This document shows positions 9,978 through 62,700 of a stretch of DNA of 64,000 nucleotides, in pieces. A model generated the notes under the pieces. That model was not told the origin of the DNA. It saw only the letters and a program-made list of their open reading frames with translations, and did not search any database. The translations under genes were made by a program, and so were the position numbers. The DNA is from Asterochloris sp. CNOR1. Taxonomy: Eukaryota > Chlorophyta > Trebouxiophyceae > Trebouxiales > Trebouxiaceae. How positions within the stretch are numbered: position 1 is the first letter of the stretch; each line of letters starts with the position of its first letter. Where the stretch lies: contig OZ017757.1 of assembly GCA_963969365.1 (NCBI GenBank), positions 1,488,001 through 1,552,000 on the forward strand, in the 5' to 3' direction.

Positions 9978-12900
9978 ATGGCCGGCCAGAATGGCACACA
10001 GCAGACAGGGGGAGGCTCTGCCCCCATCCAGGTCAGCACATGCAGTATTCTGTATGGCATGTGCACCGTGCTCTGTGCAGCACAGCACCATTACAATGAT
10101 GCAAAGTTGTCTTGTGTGCGAAACAAGAACATCAGGACAGCTTTTACCTTTGCAATTGCCACCATGAGCTCGGGGCCATACAAGGTATGCATTCTGCACA
10201 GCCCGAGAAATGAATAGGAGCAACATGCTCCCGTGCTTGCATGATCAAGAGCACGACATCCCACTATGACACTTGGCGGCGTCTCTCACTGAGCGCGAGA
10301 GACAACTGACAGGTTGAAATATAAGAGTACCAAGCTATGGCACTCCTGTTCCGCAGGTGACAGCTGGTCAGGGTCCCTACCCCCAGCCTCCAGCGCAGGC
10401 AGCGCACCAGACAGCCCAGCTGCGGCAGTTCTGGCTGCAACAGGCCGATGAGATTTCGCAAGTGGGGACAGACATGGCTGAGTTCAAGAATCACCAGCTG
10501 CCGCTGGCTCGCATAAAGAAGGTGACTGTTCAGCAGTGATGTGATGTGCTGTGCGTGGCGCACTGGCTTGCTTTCATGTAGAGGCTGTAGTTCCGCCAGA
10601 GTCTGGGGAGGCTTGTGCACCAGTACTAGAGCACCAGGGCTGCCCTGGTGCAGCAGAGTCCACCTTTGGGCTGGCTAAGAGGGTGGCAGCCAGTTCTCAT
10701 GGGACATGCCTGCTTGGGGCATGACTCGGTCAAGGCAACAGCAAGCCAATCCTGCAGTGTTGCATGGTGGTGTGCCAGGCAGTGAGTCAGGGTTCCAGCA
10801 GGCTGAAGAGGCCTGCCATTAGCTCAAGACAGCAGTGCTAGGCCTGACATGCAGGCAGTGCCCCGGCACGGATCAAGTGCCCAGGCCCTCACAACACTGT
10901 GCCTGGCAACTCCCGCGTTGCTGAGACCTTCTGAGCGCCCAGTACGGGGCACCTTTCACTTCACCCTTGCGGCTTCACATGTTGCTGATGGAACATCTGT
11001 GTCATGTGATGTGCATCCTTTGGCAGGATCCTGGTAGCCTCGGTCGGTGCACAAACTTAGGGTTGCAGTATTGACACTGCCAGCCGTTCACTTCTGAGCA
11101 TGTACAAATGCAGATCATGAAGTCTGATGAGGATGTGAGGATGATCAGCGCGGAGGCACCCGTCCTGTTTGAGCGGGTGAGCCACTTCTGAGCTGCACTT
11201 GAAGGGGGCCAGCTGGCCTGTCTGCCGGGAACTCGTCCAACCAGTGACACGCTGTTGACAGTGCAGCAATTGCACTTTTAAGGCTGTCACTGCTAGGTTG
11301 CCCAGGGGTTGGCACCTCGGCCATGTGGTGCTTTCTCAGGGAGGACTTGCCACCAGGCTGATCCATGCCCTGGCTGCTGCAGTCCACGTGACAGGTCCAC
11401 GCTGGTGTGGGCTGGTGCTGAACCCTGTTGCGACAAATGCCTTTGTCAGGATTGCAAGATGGTCATTCTGGAGCTGACGCTGCCCTGCGCCAGGCATACG
11501 AGCTACATGTTTCTCATCTCATCAGAGCTGCTGCGCCCCTTCTGCCAGACCCTGCTCTGAGCCACTGCAACAGGCCTGCAAGGATGCATGTGCCTCAAGC
11601 CTGTGCAGACCAGAGTGCTGTGGTAGGCACTGCTGCCTGCAGGCCTGGAAGAGGGTGCAGGCTTGGCAGCCTGAACCCTTCCTCCTTGGTTGCCTCCTCT
11701 GAGGCTCAATCTTGCAGCCTGTAGGTGGGAGCCCTTACCCTCCTGTGCAGGCTTGTGAGATGTTCATCCTGGAGCTGACGCTGCGGTCCTGGAACCACTC
11801 AGAGGAGAACAAGCGGCGCACGCTGCAGCGCAACGACATCGCAGCAGCCATCACGCGGACAGACATCTTTGACTTTCTGGTGAGCACTTCTGCTGTGCTC
11901 CCTGCTCCCCAAAGGGCAGATCTGCGATGCTCTGCAGCACTGCACTTTGGGCTGGTGCTTCCCACTGCACTCATCGGGCAGACAGAATGGTTTGACTGCC
12001 TGGTGAGCAGTTCGCGCACTGCTGTGCACCCATGCTGCTAAGGCCAGATCCACACAGGCTGTGCAGCACTGCACCCCAAGGTGGTAGCGTGCCTGGCGCA
12101 AAGCCTTGCCGCCCTGTTCGCTTCCTCCCATGTTCTCCCTAGGCATGGACAGCAGATTTGGAATGTTCTTGCCGCCGCCTGGCGATCTGTCTTGCTCATG
12201 TGACGCTGTATGCTGTCCTTCGGCATGCTGTGCAGGGAGCTGGGGCAGGCCTGGTATGTAGGAGCCTGTCTTTGTGCTGGCCTGCGCCCAGCCTCATGCC
12301 TGATCAGACAGACCTTGGCGATGGGCAGCTATGAGCGGCTGACATGAGGCTGGAGCGCTGCTGTGAGGCTTGTTCGTGCATCGTCCAGGCTCCATAGCTA
12401 CTGATCTGCATTCCAATCCTGCAGGTGACGGTGGTGTGCCAGGACAAGCAGGTTGTCCCTGATCAGCCACCTGCAGGGGCCTTGCTGCCAGGGCAGTCTG
12501 CTGGTCTCTTCACTGTCACCCAGTTGCTGCTGCAGGTGGCAAGTCGTGCCCCAAGGTGAGCAGGGCGATCGGGATGGCCACGTTCTGCTGTGCAGGCATG
12601 GGTGCTCCTGCAGGTGGGCACACTGGACAGGCATGAGCAGGAGGATCCAGGAGCTGCATGCTGTCCCTGTTTACAATGGATGCACACTAGGGTCGGACGT
12701 GCAGGCTTGGCTGCTTCGCCAGGTGGAGCAGCGAGGCAGGCACATGCCAGCTTTGTGCTGCTGGGGTGGACAAGTCAGACGCCTGGGCTGCTGCTGCAGG
12801 TGGACATGTGCCCTGGGATCAGCAGGTGTTACTGGGGTCCCCTCCACCACTCACCAGCTGGGGCTTCTTGCCCGCACACATGGTGTCATCAGCTCTCCGT

Positions 12901-14107
12901 GACTGCAGGTGGACATCGTGCCCCGGGATGAGCGGGAGGACCCGGCGGCAGCGCGGGTGCAGCAGGCGGCGGCTGCAGCAGCGGGGCCCTCAGGAGCACA
13001 GCCGGCTGCCAGCGCCGCATCGTCTCTGGCGACTTCAGCACCCGCCTCGGGGGGCCTCCCAATGCCCACAGGTGCGAGCGCCTGTAAACAAAGTTGAATC
13101 CTGAGGTGACGCAGTGCTGGACATGGTGTTTGCCTGCAGGCGTGGGGTCTGGCTGTGACATGGGCTCTGGCAGCAGTCAACAACAGGAGGCCCTTCACTG
13201 GGAACACTGGGCATGCCTGCTTGCTCTGCAGAGAGAATGACAAGCCCCAACACTGTGACAGCCACAGGCTGCAGAACCAGCTTGATCACCCTGTGCAGCA
13301 AATGACAGTTGCGCCGACCGAGACTCTGCAGGCTGCCGCAGAATCAGCCGCGTGCAGTGCAGGAGGGGCTGTGGCTCTCAACTGCAAGCCATGTCTTCTG
13401 GATGTGCAAGCCATCTCCTCTGAAGGGATGGCTATTGGCATGTGCCGTCCAGTCACAGCGCTCTGTGCCCAGCACGGTGCTTTAGGGTCTTGGCGAGCTC
13501 TCTCTAGCAGGCTGGGAGCTTGCTGCACCGTCAAAGATTGCAGGAGGCCCGCATCCAAGCCACCCAGTCGGAGCGCTGCTTGCTGCTAATGCAGATCCTG
13601 GCTTCTTGGGAGTAAAGCTCCCTGGACGCCTGCTGCTGAGAAGTGCTGCCTGCCAGGCAGGCGTGCACCAGAGCTTGTCCCTGCCCCACTTCAGGCCTGC
13701 AGCATGCTCAAGTGCTGGCTGCTGAGCACGTGCTCTTGCCCTGCAGGCATGCCCCGCCCCACTTCAGTCGTGCAGCACATCTCAATGCCTGCTGCTGACA
13801 AGTGCTCTCTGCGTGTCTTACAGGCATGCCCCACACCTTCCCCTGGCCCAGCACCGGAATGATGCCGCCACCTGGGCAGCCAGGCATGGGAGGGTCCATG
13901 GGGATGTCCAGCCTCAACATGCAGCCGCAGTTTGCAGGTGGGGACTCGTCCATGCTGCAGCTGTATGGGACGGGCATGCCGTCCCCCTGGGGAGCCATGC
14001 CAACCATGCCCATGGACCCATCACTGGCTGCCGGGGGCCCCAAGTCTGAGGGGCTCGATCTCATGATGGGGTCACAGGAGCCCCCGTCAGGCCCACCTAG
14101 CGATTAG
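9978..14107 (+). CDS. NFYC: NF-YC (CCAAT-binding factor subunit C / HAP5)
   Basis: Histone-fold subunit that pairs with NF-YB and recruits NF-YA to CCAAT boxes in the nucleus. Exons 9978-10031, 10357-10521, 11114-11176, 11751-11879, 12909-13071 and 13824-14107 (TAG) give 285 aa in phase. The histone fold covers about residues 61-145: FKNHQLPLARIKKIMKSDED, then ISAEAPVLFERACEMFILEL, then NDIAAAITRTDIFDFLVDIV, nearly identical to plant and animal NF-YC. The N-terminus is Gln/Gly-rich. The C-terminal third is Ala-, then Met/Pro/Gly-rich, as in activation regions of this family. Introns 3 to 5 contain decayed copies of neighbouring exon edges, described separately. Confidence 0.96.
11450..11510 (+). 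pseudogene. Decayed duplicate of NF-YC exon 4 start
   Basis: After an AG at 11448-11449 the sequence reads like the true exon at 11751: CKMVILELTLP against CEMFILELTLR. Matching is strong for about 35 bases and then lost. It sits inside intron 3 and would break the histone fold if used, so it is read as a pseudo-exon. Confidence 0.8.
11856..12100 (+). repeat. Tandem duplication of an exon end plus its 5' splice site (NF-YC)
   Basis: The end of exon 4 and the start of intron 4, with donor GTGAGC at 11880, recur 123 bp later with GTGAGC at 12003. Both are preceded by an ACAGA...TTGACT...CTG stretch. Both are followed by matching intron sequence including GCAGCACTGCA. Confidence 0.75.
12529..12940 (+). 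repeat. Serial copies of the NF-YC exon 5 acceptor
   Basis: Upstream of the true exon 5 (12909), acceptor-like blocks starting (C)TGCAGGTGG recur near 12534, 12608, 12718 and 12797, each followed by partly matching bases. The block at 12797 (GTGGACATGTGCCCTGGGAT) matches the real exon start closely. Confidence 0.7.
13640..13850 (+). repeat. Serial copies of the NF-YC exon 6 acceptor
   Basis: The start of exon 6 (GCATGCCCCACACC at 13824) has decayed copies upstream: GCATGCCCCGCCCCACTTCA at about 13746 and a weaker one near 13650-13690. Each is preceded by a similar 'tgctgctga(c/g)' intron tail. Confidence 0.7.
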
Positions 14108-14726
14108 TACGTGTAGCTACATCACTACAACAGTGTGGAGCAACGCTGTAGGCTAGGAGTATCATTCTGTATGCTTCTGACAGAACTCAGTTCTTGATCA
14201 CACAGATAGGCCTTCAGGGGCATTCAGTCTTTTGGCTCATAGACAACTCTGCATTGTAGATCTGCCCCCCTCCCCCCCGCAAGTTGTCTGCAAACCCAGC
14301 TGAGCTCAAGCGGCGGCACTGGATTGGACACACAGGGCTGCTCTTGCCTCAAGGTCTGCAGCTGGCACCATTCAAATCACAACTTTGAAAGCCCCTGAGA
14401 GGGCAAACCCCCTGATGGATAAATTCATCGCAGCATGGACACATCTGCAATGCTGAAGTTCAAGCAAGGGAGGGCACTGTCACTAGCAGGGCTGCTGGAA
14501 CATCAGCATAGAAGCGATTGTCAATATGTCATGAGCCCTTGTTGTGATCTCAACTTGGATGGGCAAGGTGCTGCACTGACTTTGTGGGTTGAAGAGGGCT
14601 GTGATGAGCCGCCAACTTTATGCAGAAACTGCTCCTCACTGGCAAAAGCAAGCTGCAACTGCAGGGTGATGAGCTTTGACTGCACTGCCTGAGTGGAGAA
14701 AGCTGTTCATCCACAGCAGGGACTGT
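14108..14726. other. Convergent intergenic region (NF-YC / coiled-coil gene)
   Basis: About 620 bp between facing stop codons, including a C-rich run near 14265-14280. No gene recognised. Confidence 0.55.
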
Positions 14727-17700
14727 TCACTGGCGCACATAATTGGCATAGGCCGATGTTTGGTGCTGCAGTCCGGTCTGTGGGTGTGGGATTGACTGTG
14801 GCTGCGCTGCCTGGGTGGGCAAAGCCAGGGCTCCCTGACCCTGCACCCACTGGAACCCCAGCTCCCGATCATCAGAGGCACCCCACCCTAGGCTTGTGTC
14901 GGGGATCCATGCCTGGATTCTGGCAGCAGAGCTGTCTGTATCCCTGATATGTACATGGTCGCTGGCGGTCGCGCCCAGCCCAGCCTGCTTGACTGTCAGC
15001 AGTCCCTGTGCGTGGCTGCTGGTGCTGGTGCCCTGCCCTGCCAGTCTGAGTGTCACCAATTCAGCTACCTCCATGTCCTCTTCCCAGTGTGCAGGCACTG
15101 TGCACACTGCCTGTGTGCCAGACCCCACCTGCAACAGCATGCAGCAGGTGAGAGGCAAGGCGGGCACGGTGCGCACAGGCCAGCATGGGTTGGACCCCGC
15201 GCAAAGCAACATCAGGGTGGTGAGACAAGGCTGCTGCCAGGCGTGAAACTCCTGCATGCCCTGCTGCGCTCTGCTTGTGATGCATGACTGCGCCTCTATG
15301 GCTCTCAGACATGGCAGAACAGGCCAGGGCCAAGCGTGACGGCAGCATGCGCAAGTGGTGCCACTATGACGAGGCATGCAGGAGATGGCAACAGGAGGCG
15401 ATGTCCTGAGAGCAGCAAGTTGGCGACCGCAACCTGCTTGAGGCCTTGTTGTGATAGAGCATTGCCTGCCGCCAAGACAAGCTGGCAGCGTCATGCGTTA
15501 AATGTGCCCGAGACAGGGGGCAGCCTCACTGGCAATTCCAGCATCTGCCCCAGATGTATGCGCAGCATCGACAGCCACACAGGCAGGCTGTTGTTGACGG
15601 GCTCACCGGCAGGTTGTCCATCTTGAACAGCATCTGCCCCAGCTGTGTGCGCAGCATGGATAGTTGGCGCTGCTCCTGGGTTAGCGCCCGAGTCAGGAGG
15701 TGCTCATCCTGTGAGTGCAGGCAAAGGCACAGCACATGAATGTGTGCTGGATCGTGACTGCACCATTTGCAGGGGTATCAGCCCATCTGAGCCACACAGA
15801 TTGGCCTCACCAGCCCAATGCCTGGCTGCAAATGACACTCCCAGATTTGCAGGTAGGCAATCACCACAGCAATGGCAGCACACAGGTGCTGATGCTTCGC
15901 TGCTGCTGTGTGGCATGTACACCTGCAGAGAGCCGATGCTGCTGTGCAAGGCTATCCTGCCATGGCTCCACCAGACATCTCACATGTCGTACCGCCTCTG
16001 TGCAGCCCAAGCCTGCTGTGCACCCTCGCCTTTGGCCACAATGCCATCTTCATCTTCTGCCTGGCAGGCAGACTCCAGCCTGCAGCTTGCCTGCACGTTC
16101 GCAGGCAGCGCTACGCCTGGACCTCGCAGGCAGCGCTACGCCTGGACCAACAGCTGGGTACAGGGCGGCCCAAAGTCGACTTCACCCGACGTCACACCTC
16201 GAAGTGTGCCTTCCAGTGCAGCCCCACCTGCTGCCACATTGCCTGGTCGTTGTCCTCCTCCTGGCCTCCAAGCTGATGCTGCCAGGTAGGGCTGCCTGCA
16301 ACCTTCTCCTTGCCTGCCTTCGTTGCAGCCTGGGCAGAATGCAGCGCTGCCTGCAGCTGCTGCACGCGCACTGCCATGGTGCTGTCAGCGTCACGCCTGC
16401 CTTCCAGCTGTCGCTGCAGGTCTGAGCATTGCTGATCCTTGCTGGCAAGATCAGCCTCCAGCCTGGCCTGCAACGACACAGTGCACAGTGCAACACTTGA
16501 CGCTTGCCGTTGGTGGAGCATACAGCCAGTCTTGTTCGGCTGTTTGGCAGGGTCAAGCAAACAATTGGGTGTCGAGAACTGACCTGAAGTGTACCCTGCT
16601 AGATAAGCAAGCCTGCCAATTCATTGCCCGCTCAAGGCAAACGTCCCTGCAGGGTTCCTGGTTCTGAGCATGCAATGTTGGCTCACCAGGGCTGCCTGCA
16701 GAGTTGAGGTACTGCCAGCTGGCAGGTCTGCTGCGCCAGAGCTTGTCTGCAGGCCTGCCCACTCAGCACGCCGCACAATCTGCAGGTGGGCTCAAGTGTG
16801 GGTGGAAGCCTGGTCATGAGGTATGGCGTGCAGCATTATGGTAAAGCAAGCTATTGCACTAGCGACAGGTCCTGGCAAGCATCAGTGAACCCTCGCCAGT
16901 GCAGTGTGTGCACCATGACTGACTTCTGTGGGCTCCACATCCACAGGTCATGGCGGCACATTCAGGCCACACTGAGACCCGCACCAGAAACTGGCTGTCG
17001 GGGTTTTCCTCGTCCCAGCTCTGCATCAACTCATCCACCTGCCTCTCCAGCATCCTGCAGCGAGCCTCCAGCTGACACACCTGCAGGCATAAGCAGCTGT
17101 CTTCAGCAGGCTGGGTTCGGCTGGCGCCCGGTGCAGTGTTGGCAGGTGCTGCTTGCAGCTGCTCTGACAGGTTCTCCGCAGTTGCACCACCTGTAAGCTC
17201 ATATCATTATTTATGATATGACTGCAATACGTCAGATACAGAGGACTGTATGGTCTGCTTCCAAACCTGCAGCTGGCAAATGCATCCTATATGTAGCGCA
17301 GACAACACTTGTGCTTGAGCAGTGCGCACGTGTCGAAAGCCGCGCAGTGAGTCGCCCAAAACAGTGCTAAATTGCTTCCCTGTGCCTTGGAAGAAGTCCT
17401 GTTGCATCGATCAGAGCTCCAGCATGCCTGCACTGCTTCCATGCGGGCAGTAAGCCCACTTGCTTGATCTGTCCTTTGAGGCAGCCACCAGCCGCATGCC
17501 AAGTGCCACCACAAAGCACTACCAGCAAAGAGGCCCACCTCTGAGAGGACACCTCTCTACAGACAAGAGCATGACACGGCACCCACCTGCTCATTTTTGT
17601 ACTTGGAGGCGGCCACCAGCTGCGCCTTCCCTGCTTCCACAAGGCGCAGCCGCTCCTGCGACTCGTCCAGCTCCTGCCTGACCTCTGACACAGCTGCAGC

Positions 17701-20683
17701 GTGCTGCACTGCCTCCTGGTGCAGGCGCTCTGTCACACCCAGGGGCAGCTCCTCCCTGCAAGAAGCCTGGTCACTCCAGTTCACAGAGCGCCAGTGCTGT
17801 GCACCTGTCTGCAGGCATTGCCTCAGAGTTGAAAGGCTTGGCGCCTTGACATGTACCAGCAAAAGCGGTCCCCAATCCATGTGTGCGTACTTTAACTGGC
17901 CCAACGCACTGGCGCACAAGGTCAGTGTCCTGTGACTTGATGGCTCAGGCATGAAAGTATTGCATTGCCAAGAACCAGTAGATCAGCAGCTGCAGCAGTC
18001 TAGAGCAGCACCAGGAGCCGCACAGAAGCTCAGTCAGCCTGGGATCCCTGACTGGATTGGCCTGTGATACATGACCATCAGGCTCAAGCACTGTCTGCTG
18101 CAGGGCCAGCTGCCAGCTGAGGAGCCTTTTTGAAGCATACTTGTCTGTGCATGGGCTGGCAGCAGCAGAGCTGGACGGTCTCAGAGTGGAGGATGTGCTG
18201 GTCTCCATGTCAGGTGCCCGCAGCGCGTGCTGCTGCTCAGAGGGTTGCGGCGCAGCAGGCCACTTACCAGCAGCTGCCTCCAGGGCATGCACCTGCGCAG
18301 CAGCCGACACTGGCATCAGTCGCAGCTGGAGCCACAGCTGCTGGGTCCGACAAGATGCTGCCAGAGGTGCTCATTGCTGGCACAGCCATGGCCGCAACAG
18401 GAAGCGGGGCTGGCAAGCCACAGTGAACTATGTCAGCTGTCAAGCTGGAGTGCAGCAGCAGCAGAGGGGTGCACGCCGGCCAGACAATGCAGGCTGAAAT
18501 GGCAACAAGGTTGGGGAATTGCACAGCAGCTGCAGCTGCAGCTGCCTCCCTATGGCTTCGCATGAGATGGCTGCGCTGTACTTAGCACTGTCTGCCTGCT
18601 CAGAGCATCCCTGAGGGAGAGCCAGAGCACTCATCACCAAAGACTGCCCACTCAGATCTGAGGAGGCGCCTGTCAGGCACTGCTCATCCCTCGCAGGAGA
18701 CAGCCCCCACTATCCACCTGGCTGCGTTCCTGCTGCAGCAAACCTTCCTCTGTGGGATTCGACCACTGGTTGCAGCGGCCTGATTGAGCTGGTGTGCCCC
18801 TGCACTCTCAAGACCATGCCACAGTTGCTGTGGCAGGCAAGCCACCTTGCTCTTCTCTGCGTGCAGCAGCCGGTCTAGCTCGTCCCGCTCCCGGCGCATG
18901 CGAGTGCACTGGCGTCTCAGTTCCTGCTGCTTCTCATCGAAGGCCTGGCGCTCGACCTCCCAGTTGGCAGCCTGCAGGCCACCAGAGCTGCTCAGCCAGG
19001 CCAGGTCAGCCAAAATGAACCCAGCAGGCCAGTCCTTTGGCTCTGCACACTGCACTGTGAGGGGCCAGGAATGTGTCAAAACGATGCCTGGCCATGAGAC
19101 CATATGCAATCATAGTCAGGCAGTCAGCTGCCACATGGCAGCACAAAGGTGTGATGAGGCGGCTGTGCACCACAAGCATGGGGCTGCTGGGTGAGGCTCA
19201 GGCCCTGCAGCCCCATCGCCAGCGTCGCTCCACAGCATCCTGGCTCTCTGGAATGAGTTGCAGGCCATGCGGCTCAGAAGAGACTTGTCAGACCTTGGTA
19301 CACCGCTCAACCAGCAGTGTACGTAGCCTATGCACATCTGCCGAAGCCAACGACACTCGTGACCTAGCTTTCCCAGGCAATCTCCTCCTGACCATGCAGC
19401 CTCCACAGGGGAGCCTGAAGAAATGCACCAGAAGCCAACAGCACTTGCAACCTGGCTTTCCCAGGTACTCTCCTGAGACTATGCAGCCTCCACAGGGGAG
19501 CCTGCAGAATGCACCAGTCAGCAGCTCTACATGTGGTCACTTCAGGCCAGGCAGTCTCCGCCAGGCCTCTGCCTGGTGGTCTTCTGACGGCCGTCAGATC
19601 ACGTGTTTTCCCACCCACCAAGTACCTTGGCGCCCTCCTCTCGCAGCTGCATTGCCAGCTGCTTGTTTTGTTGCTGCAGGACGATGATGAGGCGCTTGAG
19701 CTGCGTGATCTGCAGGACCTCGTCTTGCAGGGTGGCTGCGTTGTGCTGCTGCTCGGTGATGACCTTCAGCAGCTGATGTTTCTCCACCAGCAGCTCCTCC
19801 ACCTGATGCTGCAGGGCTGCCACATTCCCCTGCACAAAGGGCAAGGATGTTTAAGTTACTTGTCTTGAGTGTTAACAGAGAGACATGGCACTGATGGGCT
19901 GATGCATTGCCTTGCATGTATCAGGCAGGCATTCAGCTGACTGACTGCAGGACAGCAAGCAAGTGATGGGCACCCTCACCAGGGCTGCGTGTCCATGCAG
20001 GCCTCAAGAAAGCAGGAGTCATGTACCAAGTAAGCAGGACCATCTTTGACGCTCTAACAGCATTTATGGGAACCCCTCGGCTGGCCTGTCACATTGCCCT
20101 GCGCGGGAGTGCCTGGGTCGTGAATGCCCCTATGCTTGCATCGCAATGCTGGCAAGCATGCCACTGCACTCAATGAAGGATCTCACAAGCATGGGGCTGT
20201 GCCGCCATCCTCTTGCTGTGAGGAGGATGGCACGCTGCAGCAGCGCATGCATGGATCATCTTCTCAGATGAGGCCAGCTGCATGGTGGCTGCTCAGCCCT
20301 TGCCTGAGGTGAGGATGCCCCACGAAAGAACCAGCCTCGCTTTGGAGTATGTGGGGTGGCTGGCGCCTGGCCTTCAAGAGCGCCAGCTGCTTGCAGGGAC
20401 CGCAGTGATACCTCTCCTTGCAGCGAAGACTGCCTGAACTGCACAAGGTCTGCCAAGGCGGACGCCACCTGCAGGGCATGGACCACCACGAATGCCTGGA
20501 GGCACGCGTGATGCCTGATCCATACACGCAAACACTGATGAGATGTGTGCAGATGGAAGCCACTGTTCTGCAGGCGGTGCTGAGGCTGCAACCCACCCTG
20601 TTCTCATGCACTTGCAGGACATCTGCCAGGTGCTTATGCTCCAGGAGCTCCACATTGTGGCTACTTGCGCTCCTGGTGGCCAT
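14727..20683 (-). CDS. Unidentified coiled-coil protein
   Basis: I do not recognise the family. In-phase exons: 20683-20612 (start, MATRSASSHNVELLEHKH), 20468-20412, 19829-19626, 18971-18846, 18292-18268 (weak), 17755-17587, 17080-16979, 16467-16303, 15708-15607 and 15128-14727 (stop). The peptides are strongly heptad-like, for example LQHQVEELLVEKHQLLKVIT, QQELRRQCTRMRRERDELDR, MLERQVDELMQSWDEEN and LTQEQRQLSMLRTQLGQML. The last exon (133 aa) is not coiled coil. The junction between 18846 and 17755 needs one more small exon to keep phase, and exon 2 may extend past 20412. Its place beside IFT20 and SFI1 makes a cytoskeletal or basal-body role plausible, but that is context only. Confidence 0.65.
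15530..15660 (-). repeat. Decayed copy of a coiled-coil exon in its downstream intron
   Basis: On the minus strand the sequence around 15590-15535 repeats the end of exon 15708-15607: TCGATGCTGCGCATACATCT against TCCATGCTGCGCACACAGCT, both followed by GGGGCAGATGCTG. Confidence 0.75.
16100..16149. repeat. 25-bp perfect direct repeat, two copies
   Basis: A 25-bp unit starting TCGCAGGCAGCGCTACGCCT at 16100 is repeated immediately at 16125, inside an intron of the coiled-coil gene. Confidence 0.85.
19343..19520. repeat. 88-bp tandem duplication in a coiled-coil gene intron
   Basis: Blocks starting GAAGCCAAC at 19343 and 19431 share CTTTCCCAGG and GCAGCCTCCACAGGGGAGCC at the same 88-bp offset. 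Confidence 0.85.
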
Positions 20684-21123
20684 CGGAAGCTCGCTTCTAC
20701 ATGAAAATGCTTTGCCAAAGATAGGTCATGGCAGGTAAAGTCAAGGCCAATTTTCCGCGGCAAGCTGATGAGCAGCACATTGCCGACCTCGCGAGTGCCG
20801 GCAGGGAACCATCGTAGAGGCAGAGGGTGCTGAGAAAGCAGGCGAGCTCCCCGCAGTGACAGTAGCACCATGGCGTCGTCCACAGACATGGCAGCAGCGT
20901 TAGTCGTCCCCTGAATGCATCCAAGCCCTGCTGCTGGTGCTGCTCAGGCCCTTGCGCCGTCAACAGGTTGCCATGAGCATTACCACTCTGTGCAACGCTG
21001 AGTGCATGCAGCAAGCCCTTGCAGGACTCAGAGCCTGAAGACCCACATGCCAGCTAAACTCTGATGTTTCACAAGCCTTCAGGAGATCTTTGGGGCACAT
21101 TGTCTTCAGCAGCAGGCAGCTGA
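20684..21123. other. Spacer between coiled-coil gene start and IFT20 stop
   Basis: Holds the promoter of the coiled-coil gene and the IFT20 3' end. An open stretch just upstream of the coiled-coil ATG (20889-20787, MSVDDAMVLLSLRGARLL...) could be a 5' exon, but I could not join it in phase. Confidence 0.5.
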
Positions 21124-21926
21124 TCACAAGGTTGCAATATCCACGCCTGTGCTGCTGCTGTCTGTCAGCTGCGCAATGAGCACATCTTGCTCCTGCCTGG
21201 CACGCACGAGTGACTGCTCCTCGACCAACAACCTGCACAACAGTGGCTTGTTAGCATAGCACCATGCTGTAACATTACTAAATGACACAGAGCAGCAAGG
21301 ACCCTCACCGTTCCAAGAGCTGCTGTTTGTCTCGCAATGCACCCTGCTGCTCCCTCTCCCTTTGCTTCCGGCCCTGCAGAGGCAAACAGGGTGCAGCCTC
21401 TGGTGCCCAGCGTCAAGCACACCATAGGCAACTGGCAAAATGCTGCTCACCTCCTCGAGTGTTGCAGCAGCATTTCTTGCACCAATGGCCTTCAGCTTCT
21501 GTGCTTCAATCCTTGCTGCCTGCGGAGAGCAGGCTGCTGTTGCCTGCTTGTTGAGGAGAGGGGGGCAATTGTGCTGGCATCCACATGGACAGTGCTGCTC
21601 TGTATGGCTGTGTTGCTGATGTCTGCGCCCATCATGCTCCCTCAGCTTGCTTGAGCTCCTCAAACAAGATCATCCCAACCTGCTTGTCCAGCACCTCCAG
21701 GTAAGTCTGCACCAGGCTGTTCAGCTCCGCCATTTTGCCTATGAACATGCTGCAGTCGTTCTGCAAGGCCTTGGTTGCCTGAAAGTGCTCAGCATCGAGC
21801 ACGCGAATCCTGTAGTCCTGCAGAGCACCATCAACGCAGGTGCTCAGCAACTCACAGGTTTGACAACCAGACGGCGGTCATTACTCGTACCTCATCAAAC
21901 GTGATGCCAGCGGCCTCAATCGCCAT
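21124..21926 (-). CDS. IFT20: Intraflagellar transport protein 20
   Basis: IFT20 is a small coiled-coil subunit of the IFT-B complex that links Golgi and cilium traffic. Five exons close in phase: 21926-21891, 21817-21680, 21519-21451, 21373-21309 and 21232-21124, giving 138 aa (family about 130). The N-terminal ITFDEDYRIRVLDAEHF, the central IEAQKLKAIGARN and the C-terminal LLVEEQSLVRARQEQ and LIAQLTDSSS are the family landmarks in the right order. Start ATG at 21926 gives a short leader as in Chlamydomonas; the frame stays open upstream, so a longer start is possible. The neighbour across 186 bp is an SFI1-like gene, so both may serve basal bodies or cilia. Confidence 0.95.
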
Positions 21927-22112
21927 TGCAAGTTGTCCAAGCTGGCGAAAATGTGTTGCAGTCAACCTTTGACCGGCACATGCGGCCAGCCCTAGACGTG
22001 CAGCAATGCTGGGCCCTTGATCTGCTGTTGACAGCCCCTGGAAGACCTCCACTGGTGGCAGCAGAAATTTGGCACGGTCCATTGTTAACATTGTGACCTT
22101 GTCTGTTCAGCA
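21927..22112. promoter_or_regulatory. Head-to-head promoter region, IFT20 / SFI1-like
   Basis: 186 bp between the two divergent start codons. Any shared cilium or centriole regulatory element should be here. I see no clear X-box-like palindrome. Confidence 0.6.
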
Positions 22113-37834: not shown

Positions 37835-37990
37835 AAATGCCCACAAATGAGCACATCAACTGCTTGCGTTACATGGCTGCACCCGCAGCTAGCTGTGGCC
37901 ATGTTCAGCTGAGGTGACACGCTAGACTGCTTTTCACATGGACCAGTCAGTCTCAACATTTCTGCAGCTGAGGCCTGAAGTATGAACTGT

Positions 37991-43928: not shown

Positions 43929-46900
43929 TTACATTCTCACACTGCCGGCGGCGCCGCTGCCTGTGAGGGTTGCCTCAGGAGTGAATGCCAGGCGACTGGT
44001 GCCTGCTGGGAGGCTAGCCCTGTTGATGGTGGACCCCAGGGGGGAGGCTGCATCTGAGGCAGCGCTGCCCAGCAGCATTCTGCGGCTGACTCCTGCCTGC
44101 AGGCTGCGGGTGGGGGACACGCCTCCAAACTCATCTGCGTGACTGGTCCGGCGGCTGGGTGATTTGCTTTCGTTGGCGCCAACCTTGTCCTGGAGGCAGG
44201 GGCACCACAACTGCTCAGGACAGCAGTTGCGGGCGCAGGCTGGAGTGCGGCAGCACAACGCCTCAGGTGAGCGGAACAGCTGCCGAAAGAGGCAGGCCTG
44301 CCAGGCTGCAGGGGCAGCACAACTGATCAGGGCAGGTGTGGTGCATAGCCTGGCGGAACAGGCGCAGCACAGGCGCTCAGCGCTGCTGGCGTGTGCACAC
44401 CCTGACAGCCTTATCAGAAGGAGATCGATGGCCGCCAGTGCTGCAGGCACAGGCAGACTTTGCCAGGCTGGGCTGCTGCAGAGCAGCAGCCCATTGTGAC
44501 CAGTGCTTGTAATGGCGGCATGCCTGCTGTCTTGCGAGGCGCTTTTGAAAATAGATGTTTCCCCACAGCTGAGCTTTCACGCAGACCAGTCTGAGTCAAT
44601 CTACACCAAGTGCTGTTCATGGGCTGTAGGGGCCAAATGAAGGTGGACTCGAAGCCAGCTTGTCTCAATGCACTAGAGCCTGCTGGGCGCAGTCATGGAT
44701 TCAGCTGAGTCCTGGCCAGCATCTGGCGGGCTCTGTGTGTGTGACAAGCTGATCCACTGATCCCTCAGACGGCTTTCTATTCATGCAGGGGTGGACAGCT
44801 GGCGGCCAAGCGCGACCCTGGCTTCCCCAGAGCTGGCACGGTTCAGGTTTGAACCTCCCCCAGATGAGGCCCGGCTGAGTTGTGTCACTGCCACAGAGGA
44901 TGGTCGACGCTGCACGGGAAGCACACATGCTTGGCCGCGGGCCGAGAGGGATGCAACGCTGCTGCTGCAATGCTGCCCAGGGCACCACCGGACCCCATCA
45001 GCAGGCAAAAGTTGAGCAGCGAGCCAAGCTTGCGGCACATCTCTATTCCTGCCAGACAGCCAGCAGCCTGCCGCGGCCGCCCCTGGCTGCATGCATGACC
45101 AGGCCCTGCCTTCCTCAGCCCCTTGGGGCCAGCCCCAGACTGATGTTCTGCGCCCTGCAACATGAGCAGGCAACTGCTTTGCACAAGATGCAAGCCCAGC
45201 TGCCAGCTCTCTGGCTCCCAGCATGGCATTTTCTCCTTGTTGCTCCGCTTCCCTGAGCCTAGCTAAGGCAGCAGGAAGGGGCATCATGGAGCCTGATGCC
45301 CACAGGGTTAGGGCGTACCTTGCTTAGCTGCTGTCCTGGACCCCAGAATTGCTGCAATGCTGCAATGCTGAGGCTTGTCAAAACCTCAAGCAGTGCGGCC
45401 ACATCCAGCTGCAGGGCTCCGCTCCCATTGGCAGCACCCATGGCCCTCCTTGCTGTTGTCCCAGCCCCGCAGATGTTCGCCTTGCTGAGGCTTGAGGTCA
45501 TGCCTCATGCCACTGGCAGTGCCCCAGTCGATGCTGTTGTCCCCAGTGCTTCCTGAGGCTGGTGGTCAGGCAGTCCTGTCACTGCCCCAGCAACACCCTC
45601 AGCTCACCCCACTGGCAGCACCGCCGTCCCGGCTGGTGTCGCGGCTCCCTGAGAACAATGTCTTCCTCAAGGTGCCCCAACCAGCCTTGACAGGAGACCC
45701 TGCAGCTGCAGGGGCGCTCACCCCGGTCCCCCCCCCATCGCGGCTGCTGTCCCGACTCCCGGTGCCGGACATCTTCCTGACGGTGGCAGCTGGCTCAGGC
45801 TTGAGCCCTGCCAGGTCATCCGCCTCCTCGTCCTCATCGGCCTCGGCAGCCAGGGCCGCCGCTGCAGCTGTGGCAGCGCTGGTGGAGCGCTGGTTGCGGG
45901 CCAGGAAGCCGTAGGTGGCCACGCTGCTGCGGCGGACCTTCTTCTCGCCCGCGCTGCCCTCCCGAGGTCGCTCGCGAACCTGCAGGCGGCGCACCAGGGG
46001 TTCAGGGCTGGCACGGGCAGGCTCTGGCTTCCCCTGCGGCAGGCGTTCTGGCGCCCGCACTGCCCTACTGGTGCTGGTCGTGCACCTGCATGTGTGCGCA
46101 CAGGTGAGCAGATGGCAATGGCAATGGCTGCAAATGTTGGCAGGGGGGCATGCAGCTGCCCTCCCAGAAGCGAGCAGGCGGCATCATCCACACTCAGCCG
46201 AGCTGGGAGTGCGCTGCAACGTGGCATGCAGACCTTCTGTCCTCAGAGGTTGAGCCAGAGGGATGAGGGAACAGATGCAGCAGGCCTTCCACAGCAAGGC
46301 CTGCGACACAGCCTCCACCTCTGGGCGCTCCTGTGCACCTTGCGCAGAAGCTGCATCGCATTCTTTAAACAAGCTTTCGACCACTTGCATCTTGGTTAAT
46401 CAACATTAGCAAAGCTAAATAGCTGTTGCCTTGAGGCAAAGCCTGGCACAAGGGTTGCCAGACCACTCAGCGAACCTGCGTCTGGGTGCTGGCACTGGTG
46501 GCACATGTCGCCGCAGCTTGTCCAGAAACTTGTGGAACACAAAGTTGCTCGCACCTCAGTGGGCTCCTGCATGCGCACTGTCCCGTGCTTGGGCACTGCC
46601 ACGCGCTTGGCAGGACGCTTGGCTCTCTCGGCCTGGCGCTTGGCAGCCTCCTCCTCCTGCTGCTGCATCACAGGCACACGCACACAGTCAGGACCCTCAG
46701 CTTTGATGAGCACAGAGAGAGGCGTCTCCTCTTGCTGCACCACAGGCACAGATGTGGGCAGCATCAGTGGCTGAAGACTTGCACAGGAGTGGGGACCAAT
46801 CAGGCACCAGAGTGGCCTGGATTCAGCATGTTGTGTGTGAACAACACGGATTGCTGCTGACATTAGGGCTGTGGACCCTCATCTTCTTGCTGCATCTCAG

Positions 46901-53929: not shown

Positions 53930-54292
53930 GCTGCTAAGGGTGCACTCGGAGACAGGTCAAGCTGGGTTGGCTGGCTCCCATAGACCTGGCAAGGCCACTT
54001 TGAACCAGCCTCTCATGTCGCCTTCATCGACAAGCAGGCTTCCAGCAGAATGGTAGGAAAGTGACTTTAGGTTAATCTGATGACTCGAGTGCCCTCATGC
54101 CCTAACATCCCCGAACTGTGCAGGTCGCCCCTTCGTTATGTTCAAGCCTTTGGATGTACGGAGAAAAGCAATTGACCAGAACATGAGCAGATTGCCCAAG
54201 ATCACCATGAATACTGAGCCCAAGTGGCCCTGTCGTCATGGTCGCTCCCTGGCTGAGAAACCTTGAGACCAGCAGCATTCAAAGTCATTGAA
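53930..54292. promoter_or_regulatory. Divergent region, IQ coiled-coil / EF-hand genes
   Basis: 363 bp between divergent start codons. It also contains a coding-like plus-strand stretch at 54124-54266, listed separately. Confidence 0.5.
54124..54266 (+). other. Orphan coding-like exon
   Basis: After a CAG acceptor at 54121-54123 the plus strand reads 47 codons ending in TGA: GRPFVMFKPLDVRRKAIDQN and on to RHGRSLAEKP. Composition is balanced and not repetitive, unlike the chance frames around it. No upstream exon joined it in phase without a stop. It may be a 5' UTR exon or upstream open frame of the EF-hand gene, or a remnant. Confidence 0.35.
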
Positions 54293-57200
54293 ATGGCAGA
54301 CACTGCACACACAGGGGAATGCCAGAACAGGAGTGCTGCGCCCAGTCCTGACCTGACCGAGCGTAGAGGTAGCCAGGATGGAGTCAAGCAGAGCACTGCA
54401 CGCAGAGGCAGCATTGCATCAAAGGCTGTACCCAATTCACAGGAGTACTGTGAGGGGGATGCAATTGTGGACGGCCCAGTCTGCATGTACAAGTGAGCTC
54501 AGGCAACTCCAGCATGCAACAGCAGCTTGCATGGCTTGCAGCAGACAATTGTCTGTCCTCATGTCAGCTGCATAGTACTTGATGCTGATGTCTGGGCCTT
54601 GCTTGCATGCACAGCTGTGCTAAACTGCCACAAAGCTCTGCTCTGTCTTTTGATGTTGTGGCTTGGCCTGAAGGAAGGCACAGCCAGGTCAAATGTGCTG
54701 CAGGCCACCGCCCAAGTCTGGCAGGGCAGACCTGGCGCCTCTCCTCCAGACAGACATGGGGAAATGGCTCAAGAGCCATGGCAAGGTGGAGACTAGCAGC
54801 ACAGGGTGCTGCATCCTGTACTTTTGCATCCATCAGAGTGTTGACATGCTGCAGCGTCACCTGTGCAGAACAAGCTGCTGCCACCTGGGGCTGGCTGCGC
54901 CTGTGATGCATCTTCGACTGAGCGGGCCGGCTGTCAGTGAACATCACACTGCTGTGCATCACCAACCTGGCTGTCAATCTCTTTGCCTGGCTGCCTGCTG
55001 CCTGCCTGCTGCTAACAATACTGCCAGGTGAGATCCCCAAACAACAAGATGCCTGTTATGCTTCTGTGCAGTCTGTCAGAGTGTCGATGACCAGTGCCCT
55101 GAAGCAGCAGATGCAAGAGTGCTTCCGCATGATGGATGTCAACAACTCTGGCGGCGTGGATCCCCACGAGCTGGGCTCTGCCTTTCGGGTAAGTTGTGAT
55201 TTTGTGCCTGGCAAAGCTAGATGACTCAACACACAGATGCTGGCGACCAAAGCAGCTCATTCTAGTTTTCTGGACTTTCAATAGTGTGCAAGCAGCCCTG
55301 CAGAGCAAGCTTGCCCTTCAGCTGTGCAGTCTGTCACATTCTGCGTGGAGGCAGCATAAAGCGTACACTTGACTTGCTTGCCCCATGGCTTTGCCCACAG
55401 CCTGCCTGCAGCTTGCAACTACCCTGCCCTGCCTACAGGTGCTGGCCACTGATGCCTTAGAGGGTCCCCTTGCTTGGATGGTGCCCCTGCTGCCTAGTGC
55501 CAGACAGCAATGACTGGCATGCAGCCCACGCACCTGTTGCCTGGCCTGCAGATGCTGGACATCCAGCAGGTGTTCCAGTATGCCAGCGCGCGCTTCGCCC
55601 TGCTTGGCTCCAGCAACTGTGCTGCCCTGCGCCTGCACATGCTGAGCATCTCTGTCTGACAGTATGGCCCCGTTAGCCCCTGGCTTGCAGCGTGGAGTGC
55701 ATGTGGTTAACTGCCTGCGCTGTCCTGCGCCTGCAGATGCTGGGCATCCAGGCCTCCGAGCGGGAGGTGCAGGAAGTCTGTGCGACGGCTGGACACAATG
55801 GCGAGCTCAACTACCTGGACTTTGTGGGGGTGGGCATGCCGATGCTGCTTTGTACACCATGGCGTCATCGCCTGTGCAAGCAGCCCTCATTCCAGTATTG
55901 CCCAGAGGCAGACAGACCCAGCACCAAGCAGGCAACACGCTGCTGCGGCAGGCCTGAACCTGCCTGTCAGGTTGAGATGTGAGCTGATTGTCTTTCCTGC
56001 AGATGAGTGTCCATGCATGCAGAGGCATGACTATACTGATGTGCCAACTCGCCCGCCGACATGCAGGTGAAGGCCAACACCCTTCACGCAGCTAGGCTTG
56101 TGTACTAGGCCATCTGCCATCCCTGCCTGTGACAGGCTGCCCTCTAGCCCTGACAGGCGATAGCGTCCTGCACTGAAGAGGGTCCCTGAGCGTCTACCTT
56201 CTGACTTCCGCCTTCTGCCTCCCCTTCGCAGGTGATGACCCACATGCTTGGAGAAATGGGGCAGAACAGGCTGCCTAGTGCCTCTAACCCTGGCATCCCT
56301 GGCAGCGCATCGCTGCTGGCTGCTGCAAGGGCCGAAGCAAACACTGCGTCCTCCCTTCCCTTTGATGTCACAGCGACTGTGTTTCGCAGGCAAGTTGTGC
56401 AAGCTACAGGCAAGTTGTGCAGGCTGCCCTGCTCCCTCTCAGGTCGCAGCTCTCTCTCTCTCAGGTCACAGCACTTGTCAGCTGCGAGCAAGCCCTTGCC
56501 AGTGGCTGTGGGACAGCGTCCAAGTGGTCAAACATCTGTCTTGAGCCCACTCTGCCTGCAAACGATTCACACAGCTGCAATGAGGTCTTTCCACCCCATC
56601 TGCTACCGGCGGACACGGCGCTCGCAGTCCTTGTGCAGCGCAGTCTGTCGGCGGGCAAAGTCTCATCACACCAAGAGCTGGGAGACACCCTGCTCCAAGC
56701 ATGTGGCACCCGTTGCTGTGCAGGAAGGTGCTGATACAGGCTCTGCAGGACCCGCAGCATGGGGCTGAGATCATTCGCAAGATCACAGGGAAAGCTGCAG
56801 GTGGGTGTTCGAGACAGTCTGGGGTGACGGGCAGATTTGCTTGCATCTTCAGGGGTTTAGCCGGCACTGGCGCACGCAGCACCTGCAGAGAGCAGACTTC
56901 CCAGTGGATGGGCCCTGGCATCACAGCCTCCATGACGCCTGACTGCCAGTCTCTCTGGGCTCCCACATGCAGGTGACGAGCGTGATGCACAGTTGCAGCT
57001 GTCTGCTGTGGTCTGAGCAGGCCCCAGCATGCGCGCTGCAGCCCAGCATCAGTGCTTGGGACGCCACCCAGCCGGCATGCACCCTCTCTGCGCCAGCATC
57101 ATCTGCTTGCCATGCAGTTCAGGGTGCATGTGTTCCAGTGAGCAACTGATGCAAGGGACCGACTGCACCAACGTCCGCAGCATGGCAGGTGGTGGCTGGC

Positions 57201-59231: not shown

Positions 59232-59794
59232 TCCCTGCGACGACAGCCTCTCCGTAGCCTTTGTACTGCGACTCTCTGGGCCCTAATACTTGGCAGGTGG
59301 TATTGTCTAGCTCTTTCCATTGTAGTATCCTGCACCTCAGCTCGCGTCTCCCATACAGCGCTCGGCCCTGTTCAGATTGTTATGTCTGCAGCACTGCACT
59401 CATTGAGAGCTGCCAGCGAAGGTATTGTGTTGTTTTGAATGAGCTGTCCATCGCGTGATGAGTCCCAACAATTAAATGTAGGAAGTCTAGGAAGCAACAG
59501 AAACATGACAGCCCGGCCAGACACAAATGCAGAGCAGGTCAAGCTATCATGATCCAACTGGGGCAGGACAGGGGAGCCACACAACAGAGCAGCAAAACTA
59601 GCTTTGCTACTCTCAGGGACACTGTTAGCCATTGTCTTGCGTCAGGAAAAGCATCACATGACACGAGCACCTATATCGAGACCAGGACCATAACAGCCTC
59701 TTGTGCGTGATGTCAGAAACTGGAACTGAGCCCAACACCAACCAGAGCTGAGTGTCTAGGGGCCAATGCGGCGCCATACATGTAGCTGCTATCA
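59232..59794. other. Convergent intergenic region (EF-hand / acyl-CoA oxidase)
   Basis: About 560 bp between facing stops, more AT-rich than the genes, consistent with two 3' UTRs. No gene seen. Confidence 0.6.
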
Positions 59795-62700
59795 TCAGTC
59801 CCAGCCAATGCTCTTCAGGTATGCAGCATAAACCTCCTTGTGAGAGGTTGAGAGCCCGATGGGGGCCCGCAGGATGTGGTCGGGGATGGTAAAAGCATCC
59901 ACCAGGGGCACTGCCACCCCCCTTAGCTCGCTGCACAGCTCCTCCACCATGCGAGCAATGGCCTTGGCCTTCTCGGGGGCCACCAGGTCGTCGTTGCGGA
60001 ACAGAATCTCCTGGTGGATGCGCTGCAGAGCGAACAGGTCTGCCATGGCCTGCAGCAGGTGCAGGGCCTGGTACTGCAGGCTGATCAGCTTCATACGGCA
60101 CAAAACACTTGGTGACTGCGCTGCACAGAGCAGTCCGCCATGGCCTGCAACAACACAGACAGGGCTTTGAGTGAGCTTGGGCTCACATTTGCTGAAGCAG
60201 CAGAGGGCCCTCAGCTTTGGCCTGCAGCAGGTACAGCAGGCCTTGCTGTACTGTAAAGCAGCCTTGTGTGTACGCTGCAGGGCAGAAAAGGTCTGCTATG
60301 GCCTGCCGCAACGAGGAGGGGACTCAGCGCAGCACATGCTTCCCTCACGAGATGCAGACAAATCAGGCTTGACATGGCCTGCACGAGCCATGAGCATGCA
60401 TTGCCTTGCTCGGCCAAGCTTGGTGTGTCCATCGCAGAACTAGAGGAGAGTAAGGTGGTGTCCTGCACTCTTCCTGTAGCAACTCTCTTTGGCTGTGAGC
60501 CATACAGTGGCCCGTTAGCCAAAGAGGTCACTCAGCAGCAGCACACCAGATTTGTGCCACTTGTAACGCTCACCACCTCAATATGGCATCCATGCAAGCC
60601 TGCCAAAGCCTTTCACAACAAGTGGGGGCCCAGCTTCAAAGAGGCTTATGGTGCAGGTGGCTTCAGTCCTCGCTCCTTGATGAAGTCAGTCTTTGCGGGT
60701 GGTCCACCATCCTTGACTTCGAAGGCAGGACAAGCTCAATACGCAGGGGTTACTGACAAGGCGTCAAGGGGGTCAAGGCCATAAAGGATGACGACACAAC
60801 ATGACCACCTCACGTCACACAGAACACCCCTGTGCAGCATGCACGCCTGTGCAGGCTGCCACGGTCACCCACCTTGAGGGACTTCCTGCTGTCTGCGTCG
60901 GGGCACGCGCTGCACCCGTCCAGGATGCTCGTCAGCATCACGCTCTCCACGTGGGCTCGCGCCAGGGCCAGCAGGTGGTTCAGGCACTTGTTCCAGGCCT
61001 GGAAGGCCCCCAGGCGCGGGGTGTGCTTGCGCAGGCGCTGGGCCACAGTCCGCAGCAGCCGCGCAGTGCGGTACCTGCAGTGGGGGGCAGGCAGTCGTTC
61101 CGGCAGCTGATCCAGGTGTGGCCGGCCTCAAATGCATGGTGTGTTTGCACACGTGCTGGACTGCGCCCCACAGCAGCGCCGTCTGCATCAGCTGCAGCAC
61201 CAGGCAGCCACACACATTTTAGTGCTGTATTGAACAAGGTGTCACGGGCACTCTTGATGTTGTGGAGCAGAGCTGCAAGCGGAGCAGCAGGCCGACCGCA
61301 CTATGTAACGCTTGGCACGCTGGCTGTCAGGCTGGAGCAGAACCTCCGTAACCCCACAAACAGCCACTTGCGCTCCTGGCACACCAGCCACTTGGGCAGC
61401 TGCCAGTCAGCACCTGCCTTTGCATGCACAAGACCCAGGCTGGGCCACACAGCTAGTCATCACTCGAGGGACATCAACAACGCACCCCTCAGAAGGCTGT
61501 GCATTGATGGATGAGCCAACACACTGTGTACTTGAGAGAGCACAGCTACTTATCAAGGTGGGGACATCAACCTCAGCAGGGGCGCGCTGACCCCCCTCAC
61601 GGCACAGTGCATTGATGCATGAGCCCTCCACCAACATTGTGTTCCCAGTTGTGTACCCGAGGGAGGCTGCTTCTCTCAGTACTTCCCAGGTTTGCACACA
61701 GGTGACGGCACACGAACAGGAGCGCACCTCATCATGCGCACGAGGAAGGCCGGGTCCCTCAGGTGTCGGGCCTCTGTGTCGTGGCTGACCAGGGGGTTGG
61801 GCGGCAGCGCGTCCAGGGCAGTCTGCCTCAGGTAGGTCCAGGTTGCCTGGACGGGGGACCCACTGAAGCGCTCCTTGTACTGCTTCAGCAGCATGGCTGC
61901 CACCTGCAGAGTGACAGGCTGGCAGCTGTGGGCTCATGGAGCAGCGCCCGCACAGAGTGTGGGGTGGACCAGAACAGAGTGTGGGGTGGGTCCTGCTGAC
62001 AGTGACCTGGCTGGCATCTGCATGGCAGACAGTCAGATGTCTGGTGGGGACTCAAGCTGGCCACTTCAGCAGCATGGCTAGCTTGTGCAGGCAACCAGCC
62101 AGGCTCAAATGGGAACGCCAGCTTTGCAGTGGACTACCACCACTGCAGGCTGGAGGGCATGCAGCAGTACTGTCCTGGTGCGCCAGGTAAGTGCACCCTC
62201 ACCTGCTGCAGCAGCACTGTGTTGTCGCCCTCAAAGGTCTGGAAGATGTCATGGTCGCTGCGCCATGCCCCAAACCTGTTCACCGCGGCATACCCATGAC
62301 CGCCGCAGCACTCGCGGCAGGTGCTGAGCGCCGCTGCAGTGTAGCTGGTCGTGTATGCTTTGAGGCCTGCAGGTGCCAGGAGGCAGAGGTTCGACAGACT
62401 TAGAGGCTTTCTTGTGCAGGGAGGGGGCTAAGCAAGGTGCGCATGCCATAGCTCATGCTGCGCTGCCAAGCAATGCCCTGGCGCGCCCCAGCCCGCACTG
62501 GTGGCAATCTATATGCCCCTGCCAGCCTTCCAGCAAGGCTGCCCTGCATGCGGTGGCTCGACCGCAGCTGCCCAGTCCGCCACTTGACATGACCTGCACC
62601 CCTGCTGCGCTGCAGCATCGACCTCCTGGCAGTGCGTGTTGTTGACTGAGTGTTGCCAAGCTGTGATGCCACATAACAGGGCCCACCTGCTGACAAGGAA

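Follow-up and report, generated by a model that had tools for sequence, protein, structure and literature searches.

Exon-edge copies in the 64-kb window

The window analysed here, a 64,000-nt stretch of Asterochloris sp. CNOR1 (assembly GCA_963969365.1, contig OZ017757.1, positions 1,488,001-1,552,000; coordinates below are counted from its first letter), contains among its predicted genes a multicopper-oxidase-like gene (Pfam Cu-oxidase_2), an NF-Y-like histone-fold gene (Pfam CBFD_NFYB_HMF) and an acyl-CoA oxidase gene (Pfam ACOX). Direct repeats in the window are local: at a score of at least 16, 54 were observed at distances of 30-599 bp, as compared with 1 at 5000-5569 bp. The gene models are predictions, some with implausible introns of less than 60 bp, and a leave-one-gene-out trial, in which the splice-site matrices were not left out, recovered 114 of the 132 anchored introns described below with exact boundaries. 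Genes scoring below 40 and predicted introns shorter than 100 bp were excluded from the comparison of exon edges with introns. Among the 104 exon edges of the remaining 52 predicted introns, 16 match their own intron better than all 132 control edges, against a chance expectation of 104/133, or about 0.8. These 16 matches lie in 15 predicted introns, one of which (47498-47605) is false, being inside a coding 108-bp repeat; the remaining 14 predicted introns in 6 genes come close to the initial annotation, which counted thirteen introns or more in six genes.

On the forward strand, the multicopper-oxidase-like gene carries a decayed copy of the upstream exon end at 165..213 (predicted intron 128-520; score 140) and an exon-end copy at 1076..1108 (predicted intron 999-1359; score 81), each beating all 132 controls. 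The NF-Y-like gene, on the same strand, has exon-end copies at 9535..9576 (predicted intron 9519-10443; score 93) and 11963..12002 (predicted intron 11880-12235; score 83), which likewise beat the 132 controls, the exon start of the latter intron being matched as well (score 76). Between them, a decayed exon-start copy at 11450..11502 (predicted intron 11177-11750; score 134) derives from the exon starting at 11751, at an offset of 301 bp, with a 37-bp core that is 86% identical. Further forward-strand copies are an exon-start copy at 12800..12839 (predicted intron 12614-12908; score 98; the exon is without Pfam support), accompanied by a weaker second one at 12624-12657 (score 80), and an exon-end copy at 55607..55650 (predicted intron 55570-55736; score 97), where an EF-hand match is weak and below its curated cut-off.

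On the reverse strand, exon-end copies were found at 17468..17517 (predicted intron 17081-17586; score 118) and 45619..45669 (predicted intron 44190-45721; score 111), and an exon-start copy at 46034..46085 (predicted intron 45980-46554; score 113). The gene model 16192-21926, which holds the first of these introns, opens with IFT20 and may combine two separate genes. The acyl-CoA oxidase gene, also on the reverse strand, contains two serial copies of the start of its last exon in its last predicted intron (60050-60872), a decayed one at 60239..60302 (score 134) and a second at 60094..60144 (score 125). Its other copies are exon-start copies at 61134..61181 (predicted intron 61075-61727; score 105) and, as an exact 16-bp match beating the 132 controls, at 62064..62079 (predicted intron 61904-62202; score 80), and exon-end copies at 63233..63276 (score 92) and 63091-63132 (score 84), both in predicted intron 62919-63296. 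In addition, TRF reported an unstranded tandem duplication at 19343..19517, with two copies of an 88-bp unit that are 84% identical.

Exon-edge copies in independently placed introns

Introns were also placed independently, as gaps between consecutive Pfam-anchored exons. Of 376 listed family matches, 210, lying in 36 stretches, were joined into chains. The chains leave out PF00171 and PF00501 matches, a large number of kinesin and other matches from unfetched genes, and many stop-containing matches. Before counting, 11 of 143 inferred introns were discarded for an unclear reading-frame join or a low site score, leaving 132. For each exon, the outermost 60 bp at its start or end were compared with its own intron at a score of at least 90, with mismatched exon-intron pairs as the control. 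Matches were found for 23/132 exon starts and 22/132 exon ends, where mismatched pairs predict 0.40 and 0.50, and the maxima in 20,000 permutations were 6 and 7, respectively. About a third of the introns (42/132), in 22 of the 32 genes tested, contain a copy of an adjoining exon edge. Among the 264 edges, 37 have one copy, five have two and three have three at this score, as compared with 2/784 mismatched edges with one copy. The edge copies are real and are found beyond the window too. The suggestions that they are sometimes serial, that short tandem duplications across splice boundaries lengthened introns in many genes, and that decoy-like splice sites are left behind are supported.

The sequence is GC-rich with many CTGCAG and CAG words, which would favor chance similarity or low complexity, and a dispersed repeat family (introners) could in principle produce recurrent matches as well. 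However, the mismatched controls stay far below the own-edge matches, and among the 132 introns, which share no such family, only two pairs show weak cross-similarity at E<=1e-3, one between genes and one within a gene. Introners were therefore rejected, and an origin by chance, low complexity or a dispersed family is hardly credible.

The copies also have a consistent geometry. They are in direct orientation (reverse-complement edges yield just 3 and 0 matches at a score of at least 90) and lie near their own edge: the 180 bp of intron closest to that edge match 19/132 exon starts and 19/132 exon ends, the 180 bp at the far end only 1 and 3. Taken together, the near/far-side, own/neighbouring-intron and direct/inverted comparisons indicate that the insertions duplicate neighbouring sequence in direct orientation. 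Matches drop with depth into the exon, from 23/132 through 7/130 to 1/109 for starts and from 22/132 through 9/128 to 1/106 for ends, at 0, 30 and 60 bp. Offsets span 70-546 bp, with the similarity signal reaching some 300 bp, and are flat modulo 3 (15/16/16 for 47 copies at a score of at least 88). Similarity on the intron side, past the boundary, is best-ranked in only 13 of these 47 copies (about 2 expected), with decay hiding the remainder. Copy extents obtained by alignment extension overrun the true ends of some copies and are not taken as breakpoints. Contiguous tandem arrays are also present according to TRF.

Donor and acceptor sides

The initial annotation had placed the majority of copies immediately upstream of the authentic 3' splice site. 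Such copies do exist and are sometimes serial, as in the last intron of the acyl-CoA oxidase gene; however, an excess on the 3' side is absent, with exon-start and exon-end matches numbering 23 and 22 in the 132 anchored introns and 8 and 8 in the window (7 and 8 without the false intron).

Another candidate is intron gain via tandem duplication of AGGT-bearing exon segments. Donor and acceptor contexts of the anchored introns are both AG|GT-like, and 3 matches of exon-1 tails fall in the far 180 bp, against 0.12 expected, near and far parts overlapping in introns under about 400 bp. Such gain predicts, however, an exon-1 tail at the 3' end of the intron and an exon-2 head at its 5' end, and in the terminal 80 bp, at a score of at least 75, this geometry was found in 0 and 1 of 132 introns, versus 0.48 and 0.56 expected, in a test to which old gains decayed past detection would be invisible. 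As intron ends do not resemble the opposite exon edges in the 132 introns, this origin was rejected, and we regard it as highly improbable.

Intron length

Introns bearing copies have a length of 552 bp versus 372.5 bp for the others, and of 353.5 bp once offsets below 400 bp are subtracted (offsets of at least 400 bp were not). They are thus longer by about the offset, as expected from the proposal that duplications lengthen introns. Copies were observed in 5/44 introns below 350 bp, 30/78 at 350-700 bp and 7/10 above, so that part of the link with length may reflect room to hold a copy.

Age and decay of the copies

Identity between copy and exon ranges from.66 to.86. None of 45 copies is at least 90% identical, whereas a steady process would predict about 24%, and no near-identical 40-bp pairs within 1 kb were found in 255.9 kb. 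Over 35-51 bp, however, three pairs inside introns reach 88-94% identity, so that duplication did not cease altogether after the copies were formed. Age ranges starting at 0.15, 0.20 and 0.25 substitutions per site all fit the age spectrum (KS p =.24,.54 and.12), leaving the end date loose, and 0.10 gives.011.

Mismatches by codon position are.236/.209/.271, the third-position excess being consistent with silent change in the exon. There are 275 transitions and 251 transversions, with rates per exon base of.134 for C-to-T,.089 for G-to-A,.155 for T-to-C and.139 for A-to-G. By these codon-position and substitution counts, the copies give no indication of constraint as coding sequence or of hypermutation from C to T. 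Repeat-induced point mutation was rejected in view of the substitution counts, and mutually exclusive duplicated exons in view of the codon-position mismatches and the loss of matches at 60 bp depth.

The absence of young copies, together with the equal donor and acceptor numbers, makes an ongoing, one-sided process at 3' splice sites very improbable; instability of identical repeats alone would not hide the young class, since survival only falls with age. The initial annotation of the window thus stands with regard to local and serial copies, and fails with regard to a mostly 3'-side and ongoing origin. Steady duplication, with young identical copies collapsed in the assembly or diverging fast at first, is likewise improbable, if somewhat less so. 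Collapse through the assembly method is conceivable; however, 56.4 Mb in 21 contigs suggests long reads, two perfect 21-25-bp arrays survive in the sequence scanned, the 90-95% identity class is also absent among the 45 edge copies, and fast early divergence lacks a hypermutation signature.

Location-blind duplication or a boundary-specific process

The fetched loci contain 110 local pairs, of which 64 touch unassigned sequence and are unclassed; the 46 classed pairs comprise 36 exon-intron, 10 intron-intron and no exon-exon pairs, which suggests how splice sites survive duplication. Only 1/196 exon 60-mers matches the remainder of its own exon. Intron-internal 60-mers match in 43/652 cases, versus 45/264 for exon edges, a raw 2.6-fold difference.

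In simulations of location-blind duplication with purifying selection, seven settings were tried, chosen by hand rather than fitted, with duplication rates of 0.02-0.03 per bp per unit of substitutions per site. Three of the seven gave edge rates of.12-.19 and median identities of.77-.79, four other duplication settings gave edge rates of.08-.21, and simulation without intron deletions gave just 2-7.5%. The same three settings over-predict intron-internal pairs (.087-.129 versus.066 observed, about.017 of which is background) and give shorter offsets (medians of 84-120 versus 131 observed). When slower decay of the exon copy alone was simulated, it produced a 1.7-4.1-fold detection bias toward edges.

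These results bear on whether exon edges are copied into introns by a boundary-specific process linked to splicing or transcription. The 36 to 10 ratio of exon-intron to intron-intron pairs, the higher match rate of edges, the over-prediction of internal pairs by the location-blind model and the short exon portions of the copies would all fit such a process. On the other hand, the detection bias, the duplication of intron-side sequence in some cases and the occurrence of intron-internal duplications argue against it, and we consider it unlikely, though not negligibly so. As a 60-mer inside an intron has roughly double the opportunity to match, the true edge excess may top the simulated bias, and a real bias toward exon edges may exist. 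The earlier interpretation is therefore upheld for boundary duplications that lengthen introns, but not for one-sidedness, continuing activity or a clear need for a boundary-specific process, given that the location-blind model roughly reproduces the edge rates.

We propose that a past episode of short, location-blind tandem duplications probably left the boundary copies that lengthened these introns. Many duplications, with units of about 70 bp in the closest simulation settings, would have occurred without any preference for splice sites. Those inside exons would have been purged, apart from some in-frame ones, and those inside introns tolerated, with both copies decaying. Where a unit spanned a splice site, the mature transcript would have stayed unchanged provided that the outer site remained in use, since splicing then removes the extra copy; the inner copy, comprising a splice site and an exon edge, would then have become intron, lengthened it and decayed neutrally. 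Boundary copies would stay visible because the exon copy is coding and, being kept intact by selection, can act as the reference. The episode may have ended or greatly slowed roughly 0.15-0.25 substitutions per site ago. The copies themselves, with their symmetry, position, decay, age spectrum and association with longer introns, are observed; neutral decay, use of the outer site, the duplication mechanism and a bounded episode are inferred.

It is possible, though on balance somewhat doubtful, that a finite, genome-wide tandem-duplication mutator episode, perhaps due to impaired Okazaki-flap or fork processing, built a sizeable share of the current intron length and then ended, with exon edges as its fossil record because selection keeps one copy of each boundary-crossing duplication. 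Such duplications would add to intron length by a measurable, transposon-free route, and old neutral duplications that are otherwise erased can be seen by taking the constrained exon edge as the reference copy. The age spectrum further suggests that a mutation class need not keep a constant rate during evolution but can speed up and slow down.

Comparison with known systems

Targeted searches of the open-access literature listed no prior report of this intron-copy pattern. In rad27/FEN1-deficient yeast, insertions arising between short direct repeats convert ABA to ABABA, and the cited sizes of up to 100 bp (PMC5677150) are near the simulated unit size; this is a laboratory mutant, and for the alga it may offer a mechanistic analogy only. 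In flies and primates, short tandem-duplication insertions (PMC2374710, whose reference list includes Messer & Arndt 2007) resemble the present copies in being scattered through the genome and in that new sequence directly copies its neighbour, whereas offsets here are larger (70-546 bp), a large share of introns is affected and the young class is missing. Intron gain by tandem genomic duplication (reviewed in PMC3443670, with references including Gao & Lynch 2009 and Hellsten 2011) also involves splice-site sequence; there, however, a new intron arises from exon, whereas here the gain geometry was tested and not found, and existing introns were lengthened. Finally, decayed local duplications in fly regulatory modules (PMC3188502) were likewise recognised statistically by self-similarity; in that account the signal, which is linked to binding sites, extends to about 70 bp, whereas in the alga exon edges serve to detect it and it extends to some 300 bp.

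Exon-edge copies in independently placed introns

To avoid circularity, introns were taken from Pfam-anchored genes elsewhere in the genome (56.4 Mb in 21 contigs; the window lies at C12:1488001-1552000), with splice sites between consecutive Pfam-found exons of conserved genes set from a self-trained site model combined with reading frame and continuity of the profile. The tests used 132 of 143 inferred introns (median length 409 bp). Across 139 introns genome-wide, the consensus was CAG/GTGAGC at donors and CTGCAG/GT at acceptors; the acceptor motif CTGCAG/G was very strong, and acceptor and donor contexts were alike. The genome has 31 matches to the chlorophyll a/b-binding family, and one predicted window gene matches IFT20; the source therefore belongs to the green lineage, has genes for cilia and is probably an alga.

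Alignments paired every 60-bp exon edge with its own intron and, for comparison, with each of the remaining introns. At a score of at least 90, the own intron was matched by 23 of 132 exon starts (0.40 expected) and 22 of 132 ends (0.50 expected), with 17/112 starts (0.32 expected) and 16/112 ends (0.43 expected) in a strict subset, and 22 of 32 genes had at least one own-edge match. Reverse-complement edges yielded 3 starts and no ends at this score in the own intron, and the similarity is therefore genuine, in direct orientation and specific to each edge's own intron. Copies are equally frequent at donors and acceptors, contradicting the one-sided, 3' pattern proposed in the initial annotation; the window likewise gave 8 starts and 8 ends over 52 predicted introns (7 and 8 without one false intron).

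Among 47 copies scoring at least 88, the median offset was 131 bp (range 70-546 bp), with the three reading frames evenly represented. Copies were located in the intron part near their own edge. For 83 exons with both introns known, the adjoining intron was matched by 15 starts and 15 ends, the next intron by no start and the previous intron by one end. The exon part rarely extends 60 bp deep: at depths of 0, 30 and 60 bp, matches numbered 23/132, 7/130 and 1/109 for starts and 22/132, 9/128 and 1/106 for ends. Identity was 74-75% on the exon side and 63-67% on the intron side, where similarity was top-ranked in 13/47 copies. Of 25 acceptor copies 20 were aligned, 13 of them retaining AG; of 22 donor copies 18 were aligned, 7 of them retaining GT. 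Both proportions appear close to the neutral-decay expectation.

Copy-bearing introns were longer (median 552 vs 372.5 bp), a difference that disappeared when offsets below 400 bp were subtracted (median 353.5 bp, p 0.72). Copy frequency rose from 5/44 introns below 350 bp to 30/78 at 350-700 bp and 7/10 above; as long introns offer more room for copies to persist, cause and effect are only partly separable.

Local direct repeats

Ungapped direct repeats 30-599 bp apart (score at least 16) numbered 54 in the 64-kb window, whereas as many distant offsets gave 1; the corresponding counts in the gene loci analysed were 110 and 1. Of 18 arrays with period of at least 20 in 255.9 kb, only two were perfect (periods 21 and 25), one being the 25-bp tandem duplication at window 16099-16148. 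A 66-bp repeat of 2.9 copies (24281-24471), its unit a multiple of 3, lies within the long open frame 23349-25568. The 108-bp (36-codon) repeats at 47425-47826 are in an open frame containing what we take to be IQ-like motifs; the predicted intron 47498-47605 falls inside these coding repeats and is a gene-model error. Separately, about 90 bp at 20765-20855 shows 77% identity to a stretch on another contig, C15, and HSP70 exon matches of equal score occur 25 kb apart at C13:1549656 and C13:1574821, perhaps a recent larger duplication.

Age and origin of the copies

The initial annotation also regarded the process as ongoing, which the identity spectrum does not bear out. The 45 edge copies ranged from.66 to.86, none reaching.90, whereas simulations of a steady process, with detection matched to that of the data, predict 24% there (p 4e-6). 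Nor did any pair of 40-bp stretches at least 95% identical occur within 1 kb in 255.9 kb, where about 8 near-identical pairs are predicted even at one-tenth of the simulation's duplication rate, assuming 60% of this sequence neutral. Instability of identical repeats should not hide a young class, because duplication survival only falls with age and young copies could not become rarer than old ones in a steady process. The spectrum is compatible with age starts of 0.15-0.25 substitutions per site. Three intron-internal pairs at 88-94% identity over 35-51 bp suggest that activity may have faded rather than ended abruptly.

We favor a past episode of location-blind short tandem duplications. In a forward simulation, duplications fell irrespective of splice sites, exons were under purifying selection and introns underwent deletions. 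At 3 of 7 settings tried (0.02-0.03 duplications per bp per unit substitutions per site) it gave exon-edge rates of.12-.19 (.17 observed), a similar fall with exon depth, median lengths of 353-392 bp and a median identity of.77-.79. These settings overshot intron-internal pairs (.087-.129 vs.066 observed) and undershot offsets (84-120 vs a median of 131), so that duplication may be biased towards edges, or more sequence may have been inserted between the copies. The copies are too old for the duplication chemistry to be read.

Comparison with earlier studies

Short insertions are known to arise by tandem duplication (PMC2374710), and new introns have been proposed to do so as well (PMC3443670); a test on the 132 introns gave no sign of intron gain by this route. 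The exon-edge scale, the symmetry and the absent young class appear to be new in the literature searched. By analogy, the mechanism might resemble the ABA-to-ABABA insertions of rad27-deficient yeast, as described in PMC5677150.
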